DNA from: Luteolibacter luteus
GTDB taxonomy: Bacteria; Verrucomicrobiota; Verrucomicrobiia; Verrucomicrobiales; Akkermansiaceae
DNA: 64,000 nucleotides
Assembly (NCBI RefSeq): GCF_012913485.1
Contig: NZ_CP051774.1
Span: 3,348,001-3,412,000 of the forward strand
Direction: 5' to 3'
The position numbers and the translations under genes are program-made. Below the pieces are notes generated by a model. The model was given only the letters and a program-made list of their open reading frames with translations, was not told where the DNA came from and ran no database searches. Of this stretch, positions 36,568-48,529 are shown piece after piece. Positions within the stretch are counted from its first letter, which is position 1. The number at the start of each line of letters is the position of its first letter.

Positions 36568-39500
36568 TTACTCCGGCAGGGTCACGATCCGATAATAGCG
36601 CACCGGCTCGGTGGATGGATGAGCGGAGGTTTTCGGAGGCCCGGAATCAATCCATTGAGTCCGGTTCGAAGACGCCGTGACCGATGGCTCCGCACGGTGC
36701 CAAAGGGTGCCATCGTGGGTGTATTCGATGGCGTAAGCCGAGCCGGGGACAGAGTTGAACTCCAACAGCATGTCACGGTTTTCCAGCACGACCACGCGGG
36801 TGGGCCCGCTGCCGCCATCTGCCACCGCCGGCTCTGTCGGGGCGACTGCGAGAACGGAGGAGATCGTATAGGTCGGAGCGAAGCTGGGGTTTCGTCCCGG
36901 GTGGAAGAATTCGATGGTCAAGGTGACTTGTGCCCCGGGTGCCAAGGCTCCCGACCAATCCACATAGGGGAGCCCCTGCGGATCGAGCCCCTGCCGGTTG
37001 TAAACCTGGACGTCAGCCGGGAGATTTCCAACGAGAAGCCGGAAGCCGGCAAGAGCAAGGGTATTGTTATTGGTAACGGTAAGCTTCTGGATGAAGAGCC
37101 CCTGCTGCTTGTCGATCAATGGTGCGATGTCGAGCTTGGCGACCCCTGTTCCGGCGGGGCTGACAATGCCGCTTGTCACCGATGCCGAATCGTCGCCGGG
37201 CGCGATGCGGGGTTGATCGGTCGAGACGACGTTCGCATTCGTGCCGAGGTTGGCAGTCCCGCCCGGCGCTCCCGGTGAAACCGCATAGGTCACGCTCAAG
37301 CTCGCCGTGCTTCCCTCGGCCAGATCGAGCTGCCAGCGGTTTCCGCTGAAGGTTCCGGTTCCGGGCACCGCGGGATTCGCCGTGACTCCCGGTGGAAGTG
37401 CCGAGCCAAGTTCCACCGTCACCGATGTGGCATCGCTCGGGCCTCGGTTTTCGAGGGTGAAGGTATGAGTGACGGTGCCCGGAGCGCCCACCACCGGCAG
37501 GCTGCTTGCCGCGCTGAGGTGGAGATCGACACGCTCGCTCACGGTGAGGGAAACGGTCGCGATGCCGGACCGGTTTGTCCCATCGTTTGCACGGTAAGTG
37601 AACGAATCGGGGCCGAAGTAATCGGGCAGCGGAGCATAAAGGAAGGACCCATCCGGGCGCAGAAACAATTCGCCGTGGCTAACGTTTGAGACGAGTTCCG
37701 CCACGAGATGATCCGGACCATTGCCGTCGTCTTCGTCAGTGTCGTTGGCCAAGACGCCGGCGGCGGAGGAAATATCCAAGCTGCCATCCTCAGGAACTTC
37801 ATAGCCGGAATCGTCCAGGGCGACCGGAGAGAAGTCATCGTCGATGATCGTTGCCGTTACTTCCTTGCCTGCCGCGAGATCGTAGGCGCCTCCAGCCGAT
37901 AGGGTGAAGGTGATGCTCTCATCGGCCTCGTCGAGATTGTCGGCCACGGGATCGATCGTGACGATGGCCTCCTCTGCTCCGGCGGGGATGGTGACCTTGG
38001 TCCCTTCGGCTCCGCCGAGGAGGTAGTCTTCTCCTGCGGTGGCGCTGCCGGACGAGGTGAAATTCACCTCAAGGGCTGCTCCCGAATCCCCCGTGCGCGC
38101 CACCCGGATCTGGAGTTGGCCCGCGAGGTCTTCCTGCAGCGAGGCCGGGCCAACGATCGAAGCGCTGACGACCGGTACCGGTGCCGCCAAGCGAAACCCA
38201 AGGGTGGGATTTTCGACGGTCGGGATGTTATAGTCCTGACGGGAGGTCGTCACAAAGGGGGAGCCGACGTTCCATCCTCCTCCCCGGATGCCCCGGCGTG
38301 CGGCGCTGAAAACCGTGTCGTTCCATTCCGAGACGTTCCCGCTTTGGTCTGCGGTGCCGTAGTAGCTCTCGCTTTGCGCGCCCGCGCTTCCCACCGTGGT
38401 CAAGTGTCCCGCCAATCCTCCCCAGCGCGCACCGGATTCGTAGTTTGCCACGTTCACGCCGGGATTGCTGATCATGCCGGACCCGTTGGTGGTTGCCGGC
38501 ATCGGTGCATTCTCCGCCCGGGTCGCATAGAGCCAGTAGTTGTCGCCAGCTCCGGCCCCCGGGGTGGGATCGTAGGCGGCGGCTTTGTACCATTCGTCCT
38601 CGCTCGGGATGAAATATTTCGCGCCAGCTTGCCGGATAGGAGTTTCGACCGACATGTCGTAGACACCGTTCTCCGTGCCGCCGCTGCCTTTCCCGTTGTG
38701 CATCCAGTTCGCCATCCGGGCGGCGTCATTGAAGCTGACCCAGATGACCGGCTTGTTCGCCATGTTCTTCCGCGTGGAATACGTGTAGCTACCGGGAGTG
38801 CCGCTGCGGATGATGCCAGCGCGGGGGTCCGATACAGTGGCAAGATTGAAGAGTCCGTTGGGATCTGAAGCGGCGACGGCATTCAGGAATTCCACATACT
38901 GCGTGTTGGTGATCTCATGCTTCGTGATGCGGTATTTGTAATCCACCCGGCCGAAGCCAATGAGATCCGGCCGGTTGCCGGGGTTCCCGACGGTCTTCCA
39001 TTCCATGGGGATCGGGACATCGCTGGTGTCTGCCACCTCGGTTCCGAAGCGGAGGTCATCCACCCGGACGGCATTGCCCCGTTCCTGCGGGGCGGAGATA
39101 TCGATGCGGTCGATTCCAAGAGCCTCGGTGAAGCCGATGAATGTGCTGAAGTCGGCCGCGGTGATCAGCGTCTGGTCGCCGACCACGGTGCCGTTGCTGT
39201 AAGCTTGGACCCGCGCGGTGACGTTCCCGCTCCCGATTTTCACCATGAGTCCGACCTTTGCGTAGAGGCGGTCGAAGAGGATCCGCATCCTGTAGCCCTG
39301 TGTGGTATTCACCAGGATGTAGTCGCTGGGGGTCGCGTCGGTGACCCCGATGAGGCGGGGATCGAAATTGCGATTGTCGTCGTGCTCGCCCTGGAAGGTG
39401 ACCCCCTGGATCGGCTGGGGTAACTGGATGGTATCCTGCGGGGGGGCGATGCCCTCGAAATTGAAGAGCGTCAGGCCGGGATTCGCAGTCAGGAAGGCTT

Positions 39501-39597
39501 GGAGATCCGTGAACGTCTCACCGGAGACCGGAGAGGCGAAGCCGAGCAGCATGCTGCCCAAGAATGCGCGGCGGAAAAGGGAACAGAGAAGGGTCAT
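36568..39597 (-). CDS. Multidomain surface protein: FGE-sulfatase, Calx-beta, cadherin-like and DUF11 modules
   Basis: 1009 residues with a signal peptide ending near ASPVSGETF. After an N-terminal beta domain comes a formylglycine-generating-enzyme (FGE/SUMF) fold: YRITKHEITNTQYVEFLNAV, KPVIWVSFNDAARMANWMHN, YFIPSEDEWYKAAAYDP, GNVSEWNDT, RRGIRGGGWN and NPTLGFRLA. Then a Calx-beta module (FTSSGSATAGEDYLLGGAEG), a cadherin-like repeat (GVLANDTDEDDGNGPDHL, YFGPDSFTYRANDGTN) and a DUF11-like repeat (FTLENRGPSDATSVTVELG), ending in a short beta tail. This FGE type usually lacks the oxidase cysteines and acts as a binding or adhesion fold. A surface-adhesion role is inferred. The next gene upstream is a barrel candidate. 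Confidence 0.85.
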   Translation of the reverse strand: MTLLCSLFRRAFLGSMLLGFASPVSGETFTDLQAFLTANPGLTLFNFEGIAPPQDTIQLPQPIQGVTFQGEHDDNRNFDPRLIGVTDATPSDYILVNTTQGYRMRILFDRLYAKVGLMVKIGSGNVTARVQAYSNGTVVGDQTLITAADFSTFIGFTEALGIDRIDISAPQERGNAVRVDDLRFGTEVADTSDVPIPMEWKTVGNPGNRPDLIGFGRVDYKYRITKHEITNTQYVEFLNAVAASDPNGLFNLATVSDPRAGIIRSGTPGSYTYSTRKNMANKPVIWVSFNDAARMANWMHNGKGSGGTENGVYDMSVETPIRQAGAKYFIPSEDEWYKAAAYDPTPGAGAGDNYWLYATRAENAPMPATTNGSGMISNPGVNVANYESGARWGGLAGHLTTVGSAGAQSESYYGTADQSGNVSEWNDTVFSAARRGIRGGGWNVGSPFVTTSRQDYNIPTVENPTLGFRLAAPVPVVSASIVGPASLQEDLAGQLQIRVARTGDSGAALEVNFTSSGSATAGEDYLLGGAEGTKVTIPAGAEEAIVTIDPVADNLDEADESITFTLSAGGAYDLAAGKEVTATIIDDDFSPVALDDSGYEVPEDGSLDISSAAGVLANDTDEDDGNGPDHLVAELVSNVSHGELFLRPDGSFLYAPLPDYFGPDSFTYRANDGTNRSGIATVSLTVSERVDLHLSAASSLPVVGAPGTVTHTFTLENRGPSDATSVTVELGSALPPGVTANPAVPGTGTFSGNRWQLDLAEGSTASLSVTYAVSPGAPGGTANLGTNANVVSTDQPRIAPGDDSASVTSGIVSPAGTGVAKLDIAPLIDKQQGLFIQKLTVTNNNTLALAGFRLLVGNLPADVQVYNRQGLDPQGLPYVDWSGALAPGAQVTLTIEFFHPGRNPSFAPTYTISSVLAVAPTEPAVADGGSGPTRVVVLENRDMLLEFNSVPGSAYAIEYTHDGTLWHRAEPSVTASSNRTQWIDSGPPKTSAHPSTEPVRYYRIVTLPE

Positions 39598-40919: not shown

Positions 40920-42035
40920 TTACTTTGCCTTTGCGGTATCTGATTTCTTCCAGAATTCCCGCCCTGCCGGAGTTTCGTGATCGACGAGCAGCCATAACTC
41001 GCGGGCGAGGGAGCCCTCGGAGATCAGGTCCCCGTAAGGCTGTTTTTTCCACGCCTCGTAGTGGCCTTCCACGTTCTTGATCGCGCGCTGCTTGAGATAG
41101 TCCTCGCCGGTCTTGCGCCACAGCTCGAGATCGGCCTCGACCTGAAGGTGCGACCATTTGATGGGATCGCGATAGACGCCGTTGCCTCCGAGGAAGCTGT
41201 TCGCCGCCTTGCCGACGCGCAGGGCTTCATCGAGGTAGAACTGCTGGCCGGTGCGGGTGTGGAGGGAGATGAAGTTCCGCAGCATCAGTGCGGAATTGTA
41301 GGTGAGCTGGCCCTTGTTGATGTTGCCGGTGGTGACGTCGATGTTGTCCCAGAAGAGACCGTTCTCTCCTTGCAGCGTCTTCACGGTCCACACGGTGATC
41401 TTTTCTCCCTCGGCATTCCACTTCGCGGCGTCCGGGTCTTTCTTGAAGCGGGCGAGCCGGAAACAGCCGAGCGCAGCCGGGGCATTCGCGCAGGTGTTCT
41501 TGCCATTGCCCTTGTGCTGTTCGTGCCAGTAGATGCCGCCGCCGGCTTTGTCGTCCCAGCCGCTGATCACGAATTCGAGGACTTCCTCGGCGCGCTTCAG
41601 ATAGCGGGATTCGCCGGTCTGCTCGTAGGCCTCGAGGAAGGTGAGGACCATCCAGGCATTGTCGTCGTAGTACTTGTCGTTGCCGCCTTGGGTGCGGGCC
41701 GGTTCATAGCCGGGGATCTTCACTTTCGTGTCCCAGTAGGCATCCATCGCCTCGAAGAACTTCCGCATCACGCTGCGGTACTCCTTGTCATGACGGGCGG
41801 CGGCGACCACTGCGGAGAACATCACGCCGGCACCCCAGATCAGCTCCGGCTCCTTCCCGTCGGCCTTGCTCATGTAGAGGCCGGACTTCCGATCCCAGAA
41901 GTGCTCCTGGATGTAGGACATCACTTCGGCGGCCTGCTCCTGATGCTTCGGCGCTTGGGCGGAAGCAGGTGTCAGGCTGGCGCACGCGAAAATCGCGGTG
42001 AGGGTGCCGGCGAGGAGCGGGCGAGCAGAATTCAT
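40920..42035 (-). CDS. Secreted glycoside hydrolase family 76-like protein
   Basis: 371 residues from the ATG at 42035, which begins a signal peptide ending near LTPASAQA; the longer frame to 42083 is unlikely. An alpha/alpha-barrel pattern is seen with the GH76 paired aspartates KYYDDNAWMVLTFLEAY, plus WDDKAGGGIYWHEQ, NGLFWDNIDVTTG and LTYNSALMLRNF. GH76 enzymes cleave alpha-1,6-mannan, and some members are transglycosidases. Secretion suggests polysaccharide use. In the 150 bases after it a decamer GCTCTGCCGG occurs twice, 30 bases apart (40870 and 40900). Confidence 0.85.
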   Translation of the reverse strand: MNSARPLLAGTLTAIFACASLTPASAQAPKHQEQAAEVMSYIQEHFWDRKSGLYMSKADGKEPELIWGAGVMFSAVVAAARHDKEYRSVMRKFFEAMDAYWDTKVKIPGYEPARTQGGNDKYYDDNAWMVLTFLEAYEQTGESRYLKRAEEVLEFVISGWDDKAGGGIYWHEQHKGNGKNTCANAPAALGCFRLARFKKDPDAAKWNAEGEKITVWTVKTLQGENGLFWDNIDVTTGNINKGQLTYNSALMLRNFISLHTRTGQQFYLDEALRVGKAANSFLGGNGVYRDPIKWSHLQVEADLELWRKTGEDYLKQRAIKNVEGHYEAWKKQPYGDLISEGSLARELWLLVDHETPAGREFWKKSDTAKAK

Positions 42036-42143
42036 GGGGATATCAAACGGGGTTGACCCGTGATGGCAGGCCTCTCCCGTCACGGCAAGGCGGCTCCTCA
42101 GGAGGCACGTGTCATCCGGGCAAACTTCCAGCTTGCCAAATTA

Positions 42144-42160
42144 ACTTTGTGTCACAAAGT
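42144..42160. promoter_or_regulatory. Palindrome ACTTTGTG-t-CACAAAGT (site 1)
   Basis: Perfect 8-base arms (42144-42151 and 42153-42160) around one base. It lies in the 218-base gap between the divergent GH76 and IspH-like genes, 94 bases before the IspH-like start. A near copy lies 60 bases further right, so a dimeric regulator is likely. Confidence 0.5.
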
Positions 42161-42205: not shown

Positions 42206-42220
42206 CTTTGTGGAACAAAG
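42206..42220. promoter_or_regulatory. Palindrome CTTTGT-gga-ACAAAG (site 2)
   Basis: This degenerate second copy of site 1 has 6-base arms and the same CTTTGTG core preceded by AAA. It ends 34 bases before the IspH-like start codon, overlapping where a promoter or leader would be. Confidence 0.45.
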
Positions 42221-42253: not shown

Positions 42254-43105
42254 ATGCGCTGTGAACTCCGTCGTGCCTTGGTATTGGGACACGGCCAGGA
42301 GACCCGCGATGCCCTCACACGTCTCGACAGCCGCTTGAAGCGCGGGGCCGTGACCGTGCTGGGAGCGCTGGCCCCGGACGCCGCGCTCTGCGAACTTTAC
42401 CGCCGGAAGGGTGTACTGGAGGGAAGCCCTGAGGAATTCCGCGCGCCGACCCATACCGTGGTGGTGCCGCTGACCGGGCTGCCGAAAGCCTGGGTCCGGA
42501 AGTGGAAGGAGAATGGCCACGAAGTGCTGGACCTGACCCTGCCGTGCGTGCGGCGGGCGCAGACCTCGCTGAACCTCTTGGCGCTGGAGCATTGCAAGCC
42601 GGTGGTGATCGGCTGCCGGGACCAGCATGAATCGGCCGCCATCGCCGGTGAGGTGGCGGGGACCCTGGTGGTGGAGGATGCCGAGCAGGCCGGGTTGCTG
42701 CCCTTTGCTCCGAAATTTGGTCTCGTCTGCCAGCCGACGATTTCCCGCCGCCGCGCGCATGCGGTGGCGGAGGCGATCCGGCACCGGCATCCGGACAGCC
42801 GGATGGTTTTCCTCGATACGACCACGCCCGCGATGTTGGAGCGCGAGCGGTCCGTGGAAGGGCTCAGCCGCTGGGCGGAAATGATCATCGTGGCAGGGGA
42901 GGCGAGCGAGTCCTCCGTCCGCGCGCTGATCGATGCGTCCCGGCGGCTGGGCCTCCCCGCGCGCGCGGTGCCGGATGCGGGATCGCTGGAGCTGCGGGAA
43001 TTCGCCGGGCTCAGCAGGATCGGGATCACGGCAGGCGAGTTTTCCCCGGAAGCCGTGGTCGATGGGATCGCAGCCCGACTGGAGACCGAGCGAAAAGGGG
43101 AATGA
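42254..43105 (+). CDS. IspH/LytB-fold protein lacking all Fe-S cysteines
   Basis: 283 residues from the ATG at 42254 (an ATG at 42224 is also possible), close to true IspH length and order. Real IspH has a GFCxGV motif, TCPxV, HPE and an IC-x-AT motif, whose three cysteines hold the 4Fe-4S cluster. Here the matching places read GHGQETRDAL (residues 12-21), DLTLPCV (93-99), GCRDQHES (120-127) and LDTTTPA (187-193). The first and third cysteines are gone and the second is shifted by two positions. ITAGEFSP near residue 260 and the ASESSVRAL region are kept. It should not make isoprenoid precursors as IspH does; a binding or regulatory role is guessed. It follows two palindromes. Confidence 0.75.
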   Translation: MRCELRRALVLGHGQETRDALTRLDSRLKRGAVTVLGALAPDAALCELYRRKGVLEGSPEEFRAPTHTVVVPLTGLPKAWVRKWKENGHEVLDLTLPCVRRAQTSLNLLALEHCKPVVIGCRDQHESAAIAGEVAGTLVVEDAEQAGLLPFAPKFGLVCQPTISRRRAHAVAEAIRHRHPDSRMVFLDTTTPAMLERERSVEGLSRWAEMIIVAGEASESSVRALIDASRRLGLPARAVPDAGSLELREFAGLSRIGITAGEFSPEAVVDGIAARLETERKGE

Positions 43106-43407: not shown

Positions 43408-44196
43408 ATGTCCGACAAGCTCGCCCAGATCATCGCCACCAAGCATCAGGAAGTCGAAGCCCTGATGGCCCGTGCCGGGCATATCCGCGCCGCAGCCTTG
43501 CAGCGGAACGAGTTCCGCGGCTTTCGTGCGGCGCTGGATCGCGGTCCGGACCGCGTGGGAGTGATTGCGGAAGTGAAGAAGGCCTCGCCTTCCGTCGGCT
43601 TGATCGATCCGAACTTCGACCCCATCCGCCAGGCGAAGCGCTATCTGGATGGCGGCGCATCCTGCCTCTCGATCCTGACGGACGAGCAGTACTTCCAAGG
43701 TTCGCTGAGCTACCTGAGCAAGATTTCCGAATTCTCCGATGCGCCGCTACTGCGGAAGGACTTCACGATTCACCCGGTGCAGATCCACGAGGCGATCGTG
43801 GCCGGTGCCGATGCGATCCTGCTGATCGTGGCCGCGCTGGATGACGACAATCTGAAGCGCCTCTACAACGAGGCGAAGGACTTCCAACTCGATGTGCTGG
43901 TGGAAGTCCACGACCTGCCGGAGATGGAGCGCGCGATCGAACTCGGCGCGGACCTGATCGGCATCAACAACCGCAACCTGAAGACCTTCGAGATCGACCT
44001 TGCGGTCACCGAGGAGCTGGCGGATGAAGTTTCGGATGATGTGATCCTCGTTTCCGAGTCCGGCCTGCGCAGCGTGGAAGATGTGCAGCGTGCCCTCGAT
44101 GCCGGCGCGAACGCCGTGCTGATTGGCGAGTCCTTGATGCGGGCGCATAACCCGGCCGAGGAGATCGAGGCGTATCTGGAGTTGAGGGCGGTCTAA
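43408..44196 (+). CDS. trpC: Indole-3-glycerol phosphate synthase
   Basis: 262 residues from the ATG at 43408; the frame is open earlier but the extra part is Pro/Arg-rich noise. (beta/alpha)8 barrel motifs: GVIAEVKKASPSVGLI (catalytic Glu and Lys), YLDGGASCLSILTDEQYFQG, PLLRKDFTIHPVQI, GADAILLIVAAL, LVEVHD, IGINNRNLKTFEID and VLIGESLMR. It closes the indole ring in tryptophan synthesis from CdRP. No other trp gene is next to it. The next gene, a secreted paralog, starts 48 bases later but is unrelated in function. Confidence 0.95.
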   Translation: MSDKLAQIIATKHQEVEALMARAGHIRAAALQRNEFRGFRAALDRGPDRVGVIAEVKKASPSVGLIDPNFDPIRQAKRYLDGGASCLSILTDEQYFQGSLSYLSKISEFSDAPLLRKDFTIHPVQIHEAIVAGADAILLIVAALDDDNLKRLYNEAKDFQLDVLVEVHDLPEMERAIELGADLIGINNRNLKTFEIDLAVTEELADEVSDDVILVSESGLRSVEDVQRALDAGANAVLIGESLMRAHNPAEEIEAYLELRAV

Positions 44197-44244: not shown

Positions 44245-45681
44245 ATGGTCAGGCTTCTCTTGTTGGCATTGTTGATTTTCGCCGGCGGCGTTCGCGCGGC
44301 CTCGACGGCGGCATGGAAGGTGTCGTTGGAGACGCTGGCCCCGGATCACAAGACCAACGAAAAGATCCGCAAGCTGGAGAAGCCGCCTGGCGAGTCGGCG
44401 TTCTTCCAGCCGGGCGATGAGCTGTGGGATGTTTCGAGCGTTCTGGAGGACGAGAGCTTGATCCCGTATGGCTACATCGAGGCGTCCTATGAAGAGGAAG
44501 AGAAGCCCCGCGGGCCTTGGAAAGGGGAGTGGGCGGTGTGGAATGCGCGTTTGGGAAGCTTGGTGGCGAGGGGTAGCTATGCGGATCTCTTGAAGGCACA
44601 GCTCGCGTGGGACTTTGAGAAGGCTCCGGATTTCGTTCAGGCCAAGTCGTCAGCGAAACCGAATGTCTTCCGCATGCAACTCGATTGGCTGCGTCCTGGG
44701 GCAAAGGCTGCGTTCCAATCCATTTCGATGATTTGTGAAGGCGGCAAGATGACGAAGAAGACCGAGGGTGGCGTTTCCATCGAAGCCGATCCGAGCGTCG
44801 GATATTCCGAGCAAATGATCTTCACCAGGATCGCCGCAACTTGGGTCGTGGAAAAGGAATCTCAGGGCTTGGAGGTGACAACTTCGGGATACTTCGAGGA
44901 CGGCAAGAGGGCCTTCGTTGCGAGGCACGGAACCGGTGAGGATGGATGGGAGCTCTACCTCACGTGTCGGGAGCAAAGGGCTGACGGAACGCCGGCTGCC
45001 GAAGCCCGGCTACTGGAGAACAAATACAGTGGTCCAAGGCCCTGGCGAGGGGGAGATGGTCGTGTATTCGGAGAGTTCCGCATTCCTCTTCAAGGAGAGC
45101 GTTCGGTTGTTTGGAGCCCGATTCCTCCTGACTTAGGTTCGCGGCCGATGCCATTGTTGAAGCATGATCTCCAGGTGCCGGAAAATCTCCGGCGATGGAT
45201 CGAGGGGCCTTTGGTCGACTGTTCGACGCTGTTGAAAGGCGAAGGCATCAATGTGGAAGCTCCCGGATTCTTCGCGGGATACGATGTGCTGGCGCATCAG
45301 CTTGTCGTCGTTGGCGACGAGGCGACTCATGCCGCTATCAAAAGGTTGCTCGGGAAATTGGGAGGTCCTCCGGAGACAAATCTTCTCATCGAATTGTGTC
45401 CCGAGACAGGCAACACCGGGATCGTCGTGCGGGATGGAGAGAGGGGAGGGATTTGGGAACTCAGAGGGCAGGAAAGCGAGGCCATATTCGAGGTCGAGGC
45501 CACTCGGGGGACCGGCAGCGTAGCCTTGAGGCTGTTCACCAGGCTCATGGCCGATGGTGCGGACAAAGGAGAGTTGACCATAGGGATGGACCTCATACCG
45601 CGCCGTTGGCAGAAGATGATGGAGGCAAGTTCCGGCGAAGCGGTCGAGGTGCTGATCCGGGTGGGAGATGCTCCGCCCTAA
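44245..45681 (+). CDS. Secreted protein of a tandem paralog triplet (copy 1)
   Basis: 478 residues. Signal peptide LLLLALLIFAGGVRAAS. The N-terminal domain has the triplet signature: AAWKVSLETL, KIRKLEKPPGESAFFQPGDELWDVSSV (conserved core PPGESAFF plus GDELWD) and EWAVWNARLGSLVARGSY. A middle region and a beta-rich C-terminal part follow, the latter with STLLKGEGINVEAPGFFAGYDV and a strand-helix unit HQLVVVGDEATHAAIKRLLG like those of secretin N-domains. No family was recognised. Copies 2 and 3 follow at 43 and 24 bases on the same strand, so one operon is likely. Confidence 0.75.
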   Translation: MVRLLLLALLIFAGGVRAASTAAWKVSLETLAPDHKTNEKIRKLEKPPGESAFFQPGDELWDVSSVLEDESLIPYGYIEASYEEEEKPRGPWKGEWAVWNARLGSLVARGSYADLLKAQLAWDFEKAPDFVQAKSSAKPNVFRMQLDWLRPGAKAAFQSISMICEGGKMTKKTEGGVSIEADPSVGYSEQMIFTRIAATWVVEKESQGLEVTTSGYFEDGKRAFVARHGTGEDGWELYLTCREQRADGTPAAEARLLENKYSGPRPWRGGDGRVFGEFRIPLQGERSVVWSPIPPDLGSRPMPLLKHDLQVPENLRRWIEGPLVDCSTLLKGEGINVEAPGFFAGYDVLAHQLVVVGDEATHAAIKRLLGKLGGPPETNLLIELCPETGNTGIVVRDGERGGIWELRGQESEAIFEVEATRGTGSVALRLFTRLMADGADKGELTIGMDLIPRRWQKMMEASSGEAVEVLIRVGDAPP

Positions 45682-45724
45682 GCGCTCTTGAAAGGAGATA
45701 GGAATCCAACCACTGATCGACTCC

Positions 45725-47143
45725 ATGAATCGAACACTTCCCCTGCTAGCTTGGCTTCTTGCGATGCTGTCTGCGCAAGGCATGACCGCGGCGTGGAAGG
45801 TGCCACTGGAGGGCTTTGTCGAGAACTTGGAAGCGGATGACCGGGTGAAGAAGCTCGGGACAGCGCCGGGTAATTCGGCGTTCTTTCAGGAGGGAGACGA
45901 GCTGTGGGACGTCTCCGCTGTCTTGAAATGGGAAAGGAGGATTGGAGAGCCGGGCGACGATCCATTTGCCGGAGGTTCGCAACGTGTGGCGGCTTTCAAG
46001 TGGACAGGAGATTGGCTTGTCTGGAATGCCCGCTCCCAGCTGGTCGTTGCCAGTGGTTCATGGATGGATTTGAGAGATGCGGAGCAGGCACTTGGCTATT
46101 GGAGCCTGCCCATCTTGATCCGTTCCAAGTTTGAGATTCTTGGAGGAGAAGAGGACAAGTTGAAACGTTCGCTATCCTTGGTATTGAGAAGCGGGGAACG
46201 CGCTCAGGCCCGTTGGGAAGGAGGAAGCCTGGACTTGGAGGGGATCGCGGGTTCGACCGATGCGATTGATCTTCGCTGGACCTATGACTGGCCGACGGGA
46301 GAAGAAGGCCAGACATGGAGCGTGGTAAGCGCGACGACCTTGAAGGAGGGCGAACGGACCTTGCTCGCAGCGCAAGGGCAGGACGAGAGAAGATGGCAGC
46401 TTTTCACAACCGTTACCATAGAAGTGATCGATGGAACTCTCCGCTCGCAAGTGAGGTTGATCGAGGAGTCGGGAAGGATCGTCTCCTGGCAGCCTGAAGT
46501 GAGAAACTTCGAGCCTTTTTTGCGGCCTTTGCCGGGCGGCTTGGTTCTGGGAGTTTTCGAGGTGTTCCCCGACTTTGCCGAGAGGCTTGATCCGGAGTTC
46601 GGGAAGAAAGCAGCCCTTGCCGAGTCTCCGCCACAAGCGAAGGACTGGGTTCGGGGGCTTCGCGTGGATGCGCGGCCCCTTTTGGCAGGTCAAGGGATCA
46701 AGATCGAAGGTGAAGGTAGCTTTGCCACCTTTGATGCACGCGGATACCTGGTGGTGATTGCCGATGCAAAAGCTCTCGATCTGGTCACTCAGATGACGAC
46801 TCCTCTTTGGGATCCTCCTCCTCCGTCGATCCGGATTGGAGCGAATGCCGAGGCCGGAGGATGGCTGTTAACGACTCGTTCCGGCGAGAAGGCGGAGATC
46901 AAGCGCAGCCGCATGGGTGCAACGGAGGCCTTGTTTGTCATTGAGCCTATCCTTGGAGGCCAGGAGCATCTCATGGATGTGCGCTATACGATTGATGCGA
47001 TCAAAGGCACGAAGGTCTCGGGTCGTGTCGAGTCGCAAGCAACTCTTGAAGTCGGAAAGCCGAAGGCGGTTGCGTGCTTTTCTTCCGACGGCGAGGAGGC
47101 GACGAATCTGATCCTGACCGGGGAGATCGATGAAGGGTCTTGA
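45725..47143 (+). CDS. Secreted protein of a tandem paralog triplet (copy 2)
   Basis: 472 residues. Signal peptide LPLLAWLLAMLSAQGMTA. The shared parts are AAWKVPLEGF, RVKKLGTAPGNSAFFQEGDELWDVSAV, GDWLVWNARSQLVVASGSW, WQLFTTVTIEVIDGTLRSQ and RPLLAGQGIKIEGEGSFATFDARGY. Together with copies 1 and 3 it defines a family about 450-480 residues long with a single-domain core GDELWD and a repeated order of strands. There are no Cys pairs and no catalytic motif I can name. It is intact, with codon use like its neighbours. Confidence 0.75.
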   Translation: MNRTLPLLAWLLAMLSAQGMTAAWKVPLEGFVENLEADDRVKKLGTAPGNSAFFQEGDELWDVSAVLKWERRIGEPGDDPFAGGSQRVAAFKWTGDWLVWNARSQLVVASGSWMDLRDAEQALGYWSLPILIRSKFEILGGEEDKLKRSLSLVLRSGERAQARWEGGSLDLEGIAGSTDAIDLRWTYDWPTGEEGQTWSVVSATTLKEGERTLLAAQGQDERRWQLFTTVTIEVIDGTLRSQVRLIEESGRIVSWQPEVRNFEPFLRPLPGGLVLGVFEVFPDFAERLDPEFGKKAALAESPPQAKDWVRGLRVDARPLLAGQGIKIEGEGSFATFDARGYLVVIADAKALDLVTQMTTPLWDPPPPSIRIGANAEAGGWLLTTRSGEKAEIKRSRMGATEALFVIEPILGGQEHLMDVRYTIDAIKGTKVSGRVESQATLEVGKPKAVACFSSDGEEATNLILTGEIDEGS

Positions 47144-47167
47144 AGGAGGGGCGATTCATAAGATGTC

Positions 47168-48529
47168 ATGTTCAGAATCCTTCTTCTCATCTTGGTTCCC
47201 TTCTTGGGGATCGCCAATGCGCTTACAGTCGGCTGGAAGGTTCCGATTGAGCAGTTCAATCCGGATTTGACCACGAACGGCAGGGTTCGGAAATTGGACA
47301 GGCCTCCAGGCGAATCGGCTTTCTTCAAGGCGGGCGACGAACTCTGGGAGATTTCCAAGGCCGTGGAGTGGAGAGGTGAGCCTAGGACAAACCAAGATCC
47401 GTTTGAGGAGTCCGACGCCATATGGCAGGGGGATTGGATCGTTTGGAATGCGAGTTCGCGCATGATCGTTGCGCGGGGCACATTCGTGGAATTGAAGGAG
47501 GCTGAGAAATCCTTGGGGTTTGAAGAAGGTCTCTCGGTGATGAAGATGCGCTTTGAACTCTCCGGCGGAGCGGCAGGGGGAGATGAGCGTCGTGTGCTGT
47601 CGTTGTCATCGTCGAACGGAAAGAAAGCGAAGGCCGAGAGCCATGGCTTTCAGGTTAGTGCCGAGCCATACGCCGGGCAAAGCGCCTCCACCGATCTGAT
47701 TTGGAGCGCGTCTTGGCCCGCGGGTGAGGAGGATTCATCGTGGAAGGCCGAGGCAACCGTGGTCCTGAAGGACGGGCAGGAGTTTCTCTTGGCTCGCGGT
47801 GGGGAAGGTCAGGGGGCGTGGAAGCTCACGGGAAGCGTCGTCCGGCAAACCATCGACGGGATCCGTTCTTCGGAAAGCCGTTGGGTGGAGTTGCCGAAGC
47901 AGCAGGTGATGCCGTGGCCTCCCGGTCATGAGGAGTTCGCTCCGGTTCGTCGTCCATTGGGCGAGAGCCTGCAGATTGGAGTCTACAGCGGGGCAGCGGA
48001 TTTCCTTTATCAGGAGGATCCGGTTCTTGTGGAGCCGCCAGCAGCCCTTGCCGAGTGGGTGACGGGACCTGTGATCGACGCGCGGGAATCATTGGAGATC
48101 CTTGGCTTCTTATTCCTGCGCGAAGGCTTTTTCGCAGGCTTCGACGTCAAGTCGGGACGGCTGCTGACAATCGCAGATGCTCAGCAACAGGAGATGCTGC
48201 AGGACGACTTTGTGGATAGCCCCAGGGCACCATTCCGGCTTTGGGCGGAAACGAATCTGGAGGCTGGAGGGATTACGTGCCGGTCAGGCCAGAAGGCTTC
48301 GCTGTTCCGAAGCCGGAAAGGCGAGATCCAGCAGCTCTTCGAGATCGAGGCCACCGAGGGAGACGACAGGATCGTTGATGTGCGATACGCGATCCAGATT
48401 GCTCCCGATGAAAAAGCCACGGGTGGCATGTCCCTGATCAAGGAAAAGCCACAAGCCCTCGCGAAGTTCTTGAGAAGCGGGAAGGAAACTGATTTCACGC
48501 TGACCATCCGGGATCACTGGGGACGGTAG
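47168..48529 (+). CDS. Secreted protein of a tandem paralog triplet (copy 3)
   Basis: 453 residues. Signal peptide ILLLILVPFLGIANAL. The shared parts are VGWKVPIEQF, RVRKLDRPPGESAFFKAGDELWEISKAV, GDWIVWNASSRMIVARGTF, DLIWSASWPAGEEDSSWKAE and DARESLEILGFLFLREGFFAGF. It is slightly shorter than copies 1 and 2. The GHL10 hydrolase gene follows 68 bases later on the same strand. The protein is probably periplasmic or on the surface; its function is unknown. Confidence 0.75.
   Translation: MFRILLLILVPFLGIANALTVGWKVPIEQFNPDLTTNGRVRKLDRPPGESAFFKAGDELWEISKAVEWRGEPRTNQDPFEESDAIWQGDWIVWNASSRMIVARGTFVELKEAEKSLGFEEGLSVMKMRFELSGGAAGGDERRVLSLSSSNGKKAKAESHGFQVSAEPYAGQSASTDLIWSASWPAGEEDSSWKAEATVVLKDGQEFLLARGGEGQGAWKLTGSVVRQTIDGIRSSESRWVELPKQQVMPWPPGHEEFAPVRRPLGESLQIGVYSGAADFLYQEDPVLVEPPAALAEWVTGPVIDARESLEILGFLFLREGFFAGFDVKSGRLLTIADAQQQEMLQDDFVDSPRAPFRLWAETNLEAGGITCRSGQKASLFRSRKGEIQQLFEIEATEGDDRIVDVRYAIQIAPDEKATGGMSLIKEKPQALAKFLRSGKETDFTLTIRDHWGR

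Follow-up and report, generated by a model that had tools for sequence, protein, structure and literature searches.

The window, that is, the whole stretch of 64,000 nucleotides of Luteolibacter luteus DNA that was analysed, carries at 42254..43105 (+ strand) an open frame of 283 aa with no internal stop. Its product is a cysteine-less IspH/LytB paralog, called pseudo-IspH below, as judged from a Pfam match (PF02401, LytB; 5.7e-27, 95.1 bits for a cut-off of 24.5), a residue table and an AF2 model with the IspH fold. Of 7 close orthologs, 4 have methionine at the place equivalent to the start (ATG 42254). Among named records, the closest is from Luteolibacter (now Neoluteolibacter) marinus, order Verrucomicrobiales, with 73% identity over residues 1-282.

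IspH is an Fe-S enzyme in which three cysteines are essential. In an alignment with E. coli IspH, C12, C96 and C197 correspond to Gly14 (codon 42293-42295), Leu96 (42539-42541) and Thr191 (42824-42826), and a cysteine, Cys98 (42545-42547), is located two residues past the second position. The initial annotation had described the same replacements, and no re-alignment restores the cysteines: the motifs of Cys-complete proteins pair with those of the window protein without gaps (GMCFGVRDAL with GHGQETRDAL, DTTCPLV with DLTLPCV and DTVCRPT with DTTTPAM). The TAG motif (residues 259-261) is retained, as had also been claimed. The protein scores 83.8 bits with the IspH equivalog model TIGR00216, far below the cut-off of 187.85. 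We class it with the LytB fold family and not among the IspH enzymes.

Reading the gene as a pseudo-enzyme had presupposed a true ispH elsewhere in the genome (6.41 Mb, one contig). Its only further LytB gene (G000:C1:5358298-5359317) encodes a long IspH that does carry all three cysteines (GFCYGV, DTTCGDV, DTICGAT), and IspG and DXR are also present. The genome does not depend on pseudo-IspH for a Cys-complete IspH. A PF02401 search of 57 genomes, this one included, gave a match in 56; among the 15 with a Cys-less copy, 14 have a long-type match, and none was found in G001, whose draft assembly is listed as 90% complete.

Upstream, a divergent glycosyl hydrolase family 76-like gene (40920..42083, - strand; PF03663, 1e-39) shares its upstream stretch with pseudo-IspH. 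Two predicted operators fall between the two genes: a distal one, CTTTGTGTCACAAAG (42145..42159), and a proximal one, CTTTGTGGAACAAAG (42206..42220), 33 bases ahead of the ATG. Counting the window's, 6 of the 9 clade-A genomes have a GH76 profile match in their locus, and the window's GH76-like gene may be co-regulated with pseudo-IspH. A scan of the stretch for sigma-70 promoters found none. The next gene downstream is trpC, encoding indole-3-glycerol phosphate synthase (43408..44196, + strand; PF00218, 2.2e-89). Of the 9 clade-A genomes, just 4 (the window's, L040, L041 and L049) have it near pseudo-IspH, and it was dropped as a functional clue, being a mere neighbour. Beyond it, three tandem paralogs (478, 472 and 453 aa; 44245-48529, + strand) form a cluster that no other protein of the compared loci joins. 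On the other side, at 36568-39597 (- strand), a secreted-looking protein of 1009 aa appears by eye to carry Calx-beta and cadherin-like repeats alongside a formylglycine-enzyme-like domain.

The Cys-less clade

The compared loci contain 61 distinct LytB homologs: 30 short Cys-complete proteins (group B), 3 long IspH and 28 Cys-poor sequences. Two of the last (L011 and L032) come from a single G015 gene, split into halves at contig ends, and were excluded from tree and tables, leaving 26 Cys-poor rows; L014 was kept, its N-terminal end missing at a contig edge. The tree comprises 60 rows, all from this order apart from E. coli IspH, which is one of the 60; the Cys columns were retained in the alignment, and the tree was rooted with long IspH. 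It answers the proposal of the initial annotation that cysteine-less homologs be placed in a tree: the 26 rows form one clade (100/100), with a single change of state in 100% of 200 bootstrap trees. L015 and L017 are on long branches. The position of the clade within group B has moderate support (84/59, 87/93), to which synteny is added. Its members belong to three genera of one family, g1 (that of the window), g13 and g10. C12 and C96 are missing in 26/26 members and C197 in 23/26, the other three keeping the third cysteine, so that the loss is not due to chance. On this tree, the short second IspH has lost its Fe-S ligands once, in the ancestor of the three sampled genera.

Partner genes, predicted operator and regulon

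Two genes, c1 and c2, precede the LytB gene in 18 of 25 group B loci. The same arrangement is found in 14 loci of the Cys-less clade, covering g13, g10 and part of g1. c1 encodes a membrane protein of about 210 aa with six long predicted helices (pLDDT 90.4); the one copy scanned had no Pfam match, and its predicted structure had no PDB match at E <= 0.001. c2 encodes a protein of about 100 aa with an HTH_34 winged helix (PF13601, 1.3e-21, 76.9 bits for a cut-off of 27 in the one scanned, that of L055); no NCBIfam model scored above its cut-off with the c2 of the window's genome. In the subclade of the window, pseudo-IspH stands alone. The c1-c2 pair of the window's genome is located 0.78 Mb away (G000:C1:2607240-2608174) and is followed by an Exo_endo_phos gene. 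In L046 and L093 such a gene sits between c2 and LytB, which hints at a trace of an older gene order.

Across 288 genomes of the order, the short second IspH (LytB2) and c1 occur together in 124; LytB2 occurs without c1 in 14, c1 without LytB2 in 7 and neither in 143 (Fisher 2e-55, a statistic blind to phylogeny). LytB2 was classified in 53 of the 138 genomes that carry it (23 Cys-less, 30 Cys-complete). c1 is found in all 23 genomes classed as Cys-less in this sample, and the 7 classified among the 14 genomes with LytB2 only are all Cys-complete. Two genomes of the window's genus, G004 and G014, have neither the pseudo-IspH gene nor c1 and c2.

The palindrome CTTTG-Y-NNN-R-CAAAG recurs upstream of c1, where it is exact in 38 of 42 loci and absent in 4. 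It is also found ahead of the Cys-less genes: of the 23 with upstream DNA (L045 and L049 lack it and are outside this count), 22 have two sites and the remaining one has a single site. The paired sites are spaced by 57-62 bp in 21 cases and by 85 in L098. At least one palindrome precedes 16 of 25 Cys-complete genes. Seven of the nine genes lacking it (L051, L087-L092) are in loci without c1, while L099 and L102 adjoin c1-c2. No site lies ahead of the two long IspH genes in the compared loci or near the long ispH of the window's genome, and a reversed control pattern was found nowhere in the same upstream stretches.

The complete genome has four copies of CTTTG-N5-CAAAG. One is at c1, two are the window sites 42145 and 42206 ahead of pseudo-IspH, and the fourth is at genome position 5226326. 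The reversed control occurs nine times against these four, so the count is not enriched and the telling point is where the sites lie. G004, which has none of the three genes, has no site; G014 has one, lacking the Y...R centre. Together these observations are strong evidence that the pseudo-IspH gene stayed under c2 after parting from it, with c2 binding predicted from the position of the sites and their co-occurrence with the genes. The gene very probably belongs to the c2 regulon.

The gene that carries the fourth site at its 5' end encodes a small SLBB-domain protein (PF10531, 4.2e-11, over the cut-off), which weakly resembles PEP-CTERM exopolysaccharide export proteins (36.4 bits for a cut-off of 180). 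Including this one, 21 further sites were considered, the other 20 being picked from the matches listed for their Y...R centre (G011:C3:349135 and sites without this centre were left out). Fourteen of the 21, across 12 genomes, are at the 5' end of an SLBB-family gene; since 12 of these site-adjacent genes went into the profile, this figure is a count rather than an independent test. SLBB models match all six family proteins scanned at E <= 0.01, and SLBB or Poly_export is over the cut-off in five, L150 being below. The remaining seven sites have other neighbours (L132, L135, L139, L141, L145, L148 and L149). Those of L135, L139 and L145 are Wzz-like by eye, and Pfam gave nothing in the two scanned. 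Exo_endo_phos genes are found within the predicted regulon in relatives. These genes point to exported polysaccharide or the envelope as the process served, and the regulon, which the initial annotation could not see, is the stronger clue to the role of the protein.

In L133, L137, L138 and L143, a sigma-factor-like gene (by eye) is located across the site from the SLBB gene. G036, a genome with a Cys-complete copy, has two more palindrome places (L151 and L159), one of them with two copies; the nearby frames are membrane-protein-like by eye and have no SLBB-family match.

The remade active site and possible roles

The AF2 model of the window protein has a pLDDT of 95.7. Foldseek pairs it with the IspH:HMBPP structure (E 3e-20, TM 0.90), and a VIA-align superposition on 3szu_A gives a Z of 32.7 over 275 residues at 1.9 A. 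According to the model, the window protein adopts the three-lobed, closed fold of IspH.

In a published review, the diphosphate pocket of IspH is formed by H41, H74, H124, S225, S269, T168, N227 and Q166, and E126 is the likely proton source (PMC8837944). Group B matches the E. coli residue in 30/30 proteins at positions 12, 41, 74, 96, 124, 126, 166, 167, 168, 197, 203, 225, 227 and 269. In the Cys-less clade the cysteines are replaced by varied residues (position 12: D 11, G 8, S 6, T 1; position 96: L 14, S 9, T 2, A 1; position 197: S 16, T 3, C 3, A 2, D 2), and the pocket by more uniform ones. H41 is Pro in 25/26 members, H124 is Asp in 24/26, S225 is Glu or Asp in 24/26 and N227 is Ser in 25/26; position 269, Ser in IspH, is F in 19, H in 3, Y in 2 and D in 2. 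E126 (25/26), R203 (26/26), Q166 (23/26) and T168 (13/26) are retained. The window protein has P, T, Q, E, S, F, T and Q at H41, H74, H124, S225, N227, S269, T168 and Q166, thus keeping two of the eight pocket residues, and it also keeps the catalytic Glu, E126. Its exceptions are Gln at 124, where 24/26 members have Asp, and Pro at T167. As far as the alignment tells, the pocket of the clade has turned acidic and bulky. Set against the pocket residues listed in that review (PMC8837944), the residue table indicates that the clade has lost the redox centre and most of the contacts to diphosphate but has kept E126. The uniformity of the replacements across the clade makes them look like a new site rather than decay.

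The window protein is almost certainly a non-redox pseudo-IspH. The explanation that we prefer makes it an effector, either a sensor or a regulatory subunit, in a c2 regulon of envelope polysaccharide. We hold the chances of this whole account to be evenly balanced, and those of the effector role taken separately to be a little short of that. The short second IspH, present in many Verrucomicrobiales and often beside c1-c2, would have lost its Fe-S ligands once. c2 would be a repressor acting on CTTTG-Y-NNN-R-CAAAG and holding down its own operon, the pseudo-IspH gene through two sites, and the SLBB gene, which is polysaccharide-export-like. A membrane-linked signal passing through c1 would release c2, and pseudo-IspH would then be made. 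Its three-lobed cavity may close on a small non-diphosphate ligand, perhaps cationic or metal-linked, gripped by carboxylates at positions 126 and 225 and, in most members, by one at 124. Pseudo-IspH would thereby work as a non-redox effector of an envelope-polysaccharide response and not as a reductase. The Cys-complete relative may supply the isoprenoid carrier for polysaccharide export. We tentatively suggest that the switch formed by c1, c2 and the palindrome, which occurs across much of the order, first ran a spare IspH, presumably for isoprenoid carrier supply for exported polysaccharide, and that within one family this enzyme was later converted in place to a cluster-free signalling protein closing on a new ligand.

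Almost as probable as the effector role is a new catalytic one, itself no more than a serious possibility. The cavity would have been rebuilt as a non-redox active site, for example that of a hydrolase, lyase or isomerase acting on a precursor of the envelope or of a polysaccharide. The residues of the old site are common to the clade and not the product of random decay, E126 and R203 being inherited (30/30 in group B) and Asp124, Glu/Asp225 and Ser227 being new. An enzyme would also fit the match of the predicted model to closed IspH and a predicted regulon that includes SLBB genes, joined in relatives by Exo_endo_phos genes. However, the window protein itself is without D124, position 12 varies across the clade, and the neighbouring genes define no pathway substrate.

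The initial annotation had proposed a pseudo-enzyme reused for another task, perhaps sensing an isoprenoid or other phosphorylated ligand. The first part agrees with the loss of IspH chemistry, the maintenance of the gene by selection in many species and the presence of another, Cys-complete ispH. The second finds no support. A sensor of HMBPP, IPP or DMAPP would be consistent with the close kinship to Cys-complete IspH, the predicted closed fold and the retention of Q166, but H41, H124, S225, N227 and S269 are replaced in nearly all 26 members, several by acids or Phe, when compared with the diphosphate pocket as given in PMC8837944. Such a sensor is improbable.

That the gene is decaying without function is very improbable. 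It does evolve faster than long IspH, and G004 and G014 are without it, along with c1-c2. However, its dN/dS (Nei-Gojobori) ranges from 0.073 to 0.445, below 0.5, in 10/10 Cys-less pairs, which share genomes and reach a dS of 1.05, compared with 0.054-0.146 in 7 long-IspH pairs and 0.112-0.271 in 4 group B pairs. Decay was rejected on these values, which show the Cys-less genes to be under purifying selection, with a dN/dS above that of long IspH. Moreover, the search matches to the Cys-less genes have no stops inside (a lone TGA in G006 is the gene's end), and the double site is conserved. An Fe-S reductase relying on other cysteines, such as Cys98 or Cys159, is the least probable of all and was rejected: a cysteine at the T165 position (Cys159 in the window protein) occurs in 22/26 members, but the next-best Cys column reaches 11/26, so that there is no second clade-wide column, L070 has two cysteines in all, and Cys98 is not conserved.

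We know of no IspH-fold protein that works without iron inside a gene-regulatory circuit; pseudo-IspH, if the preferred effector reading is true, would be the first. In this clade the fold survives without the cluster ligands and around a rebuilt pocket while Cys-complete kin persist in the same neighbourhood in sister genera, a natural experiment on the conversion of a metalloenzyme. With an operator and a regulon predicted, the new role can be tested directly. Annotation by Pfam score alone would probably label such genes ispH, which matters for gene counts of the MEP pathway.

Among the matches listed from the open literature, and as far as their available text goes, none describes a Cys-less IspH clade or a c1-c2-LytB operon. 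The protein resembles the IspH enzyme (LytB, HDR; EC 1.17.7.4; E. coli b0029) in its full predicted fold, its PF02401 match and the conservation of E126 and R203; it differs in the absence of the cluster cysteines, the replacement of most diphosphate ligands and its low TIGR00216 score. Mycobacterium tuberculosis also has two LytB homologs, of which the second does not replace the essential one; however, both keep all critical residues, which the second copy described here has lost (PMC4550268). Rice OsIspH2, a second IspH gene likewise non-functional as IspH, has an early stop and is termed a duplicated pseudogene (PMC9044040), whereas pseudo-IspH is an intact frame under selection.

The nearest lineage is group B itself, the short Cys-complete second IspH of Verrucomicrobiales, with which the clade shares the c1-c2 neighbourhood and the palindrome. 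Group B proteins differ in keeping the active-site residues, and the one tested passes TIGR00216 (237 bits). An AurF/ferritin-like diiron protein is encoded directly after the Cys-complete IspH in 8 of 25 group B loci (L052, L054, L056, L058-L061 and L084); the two copies scanned give weak matches (1.6e-5 and 0.0017), and the profile has no match in any Cys-less locus. In two genomes of genus g9 (L087, 4795-9075; L088, 4888-8177), in loci with no c1 or c2 match, the short and the long IspH genes lie 1-2 kb apart on the same strand.
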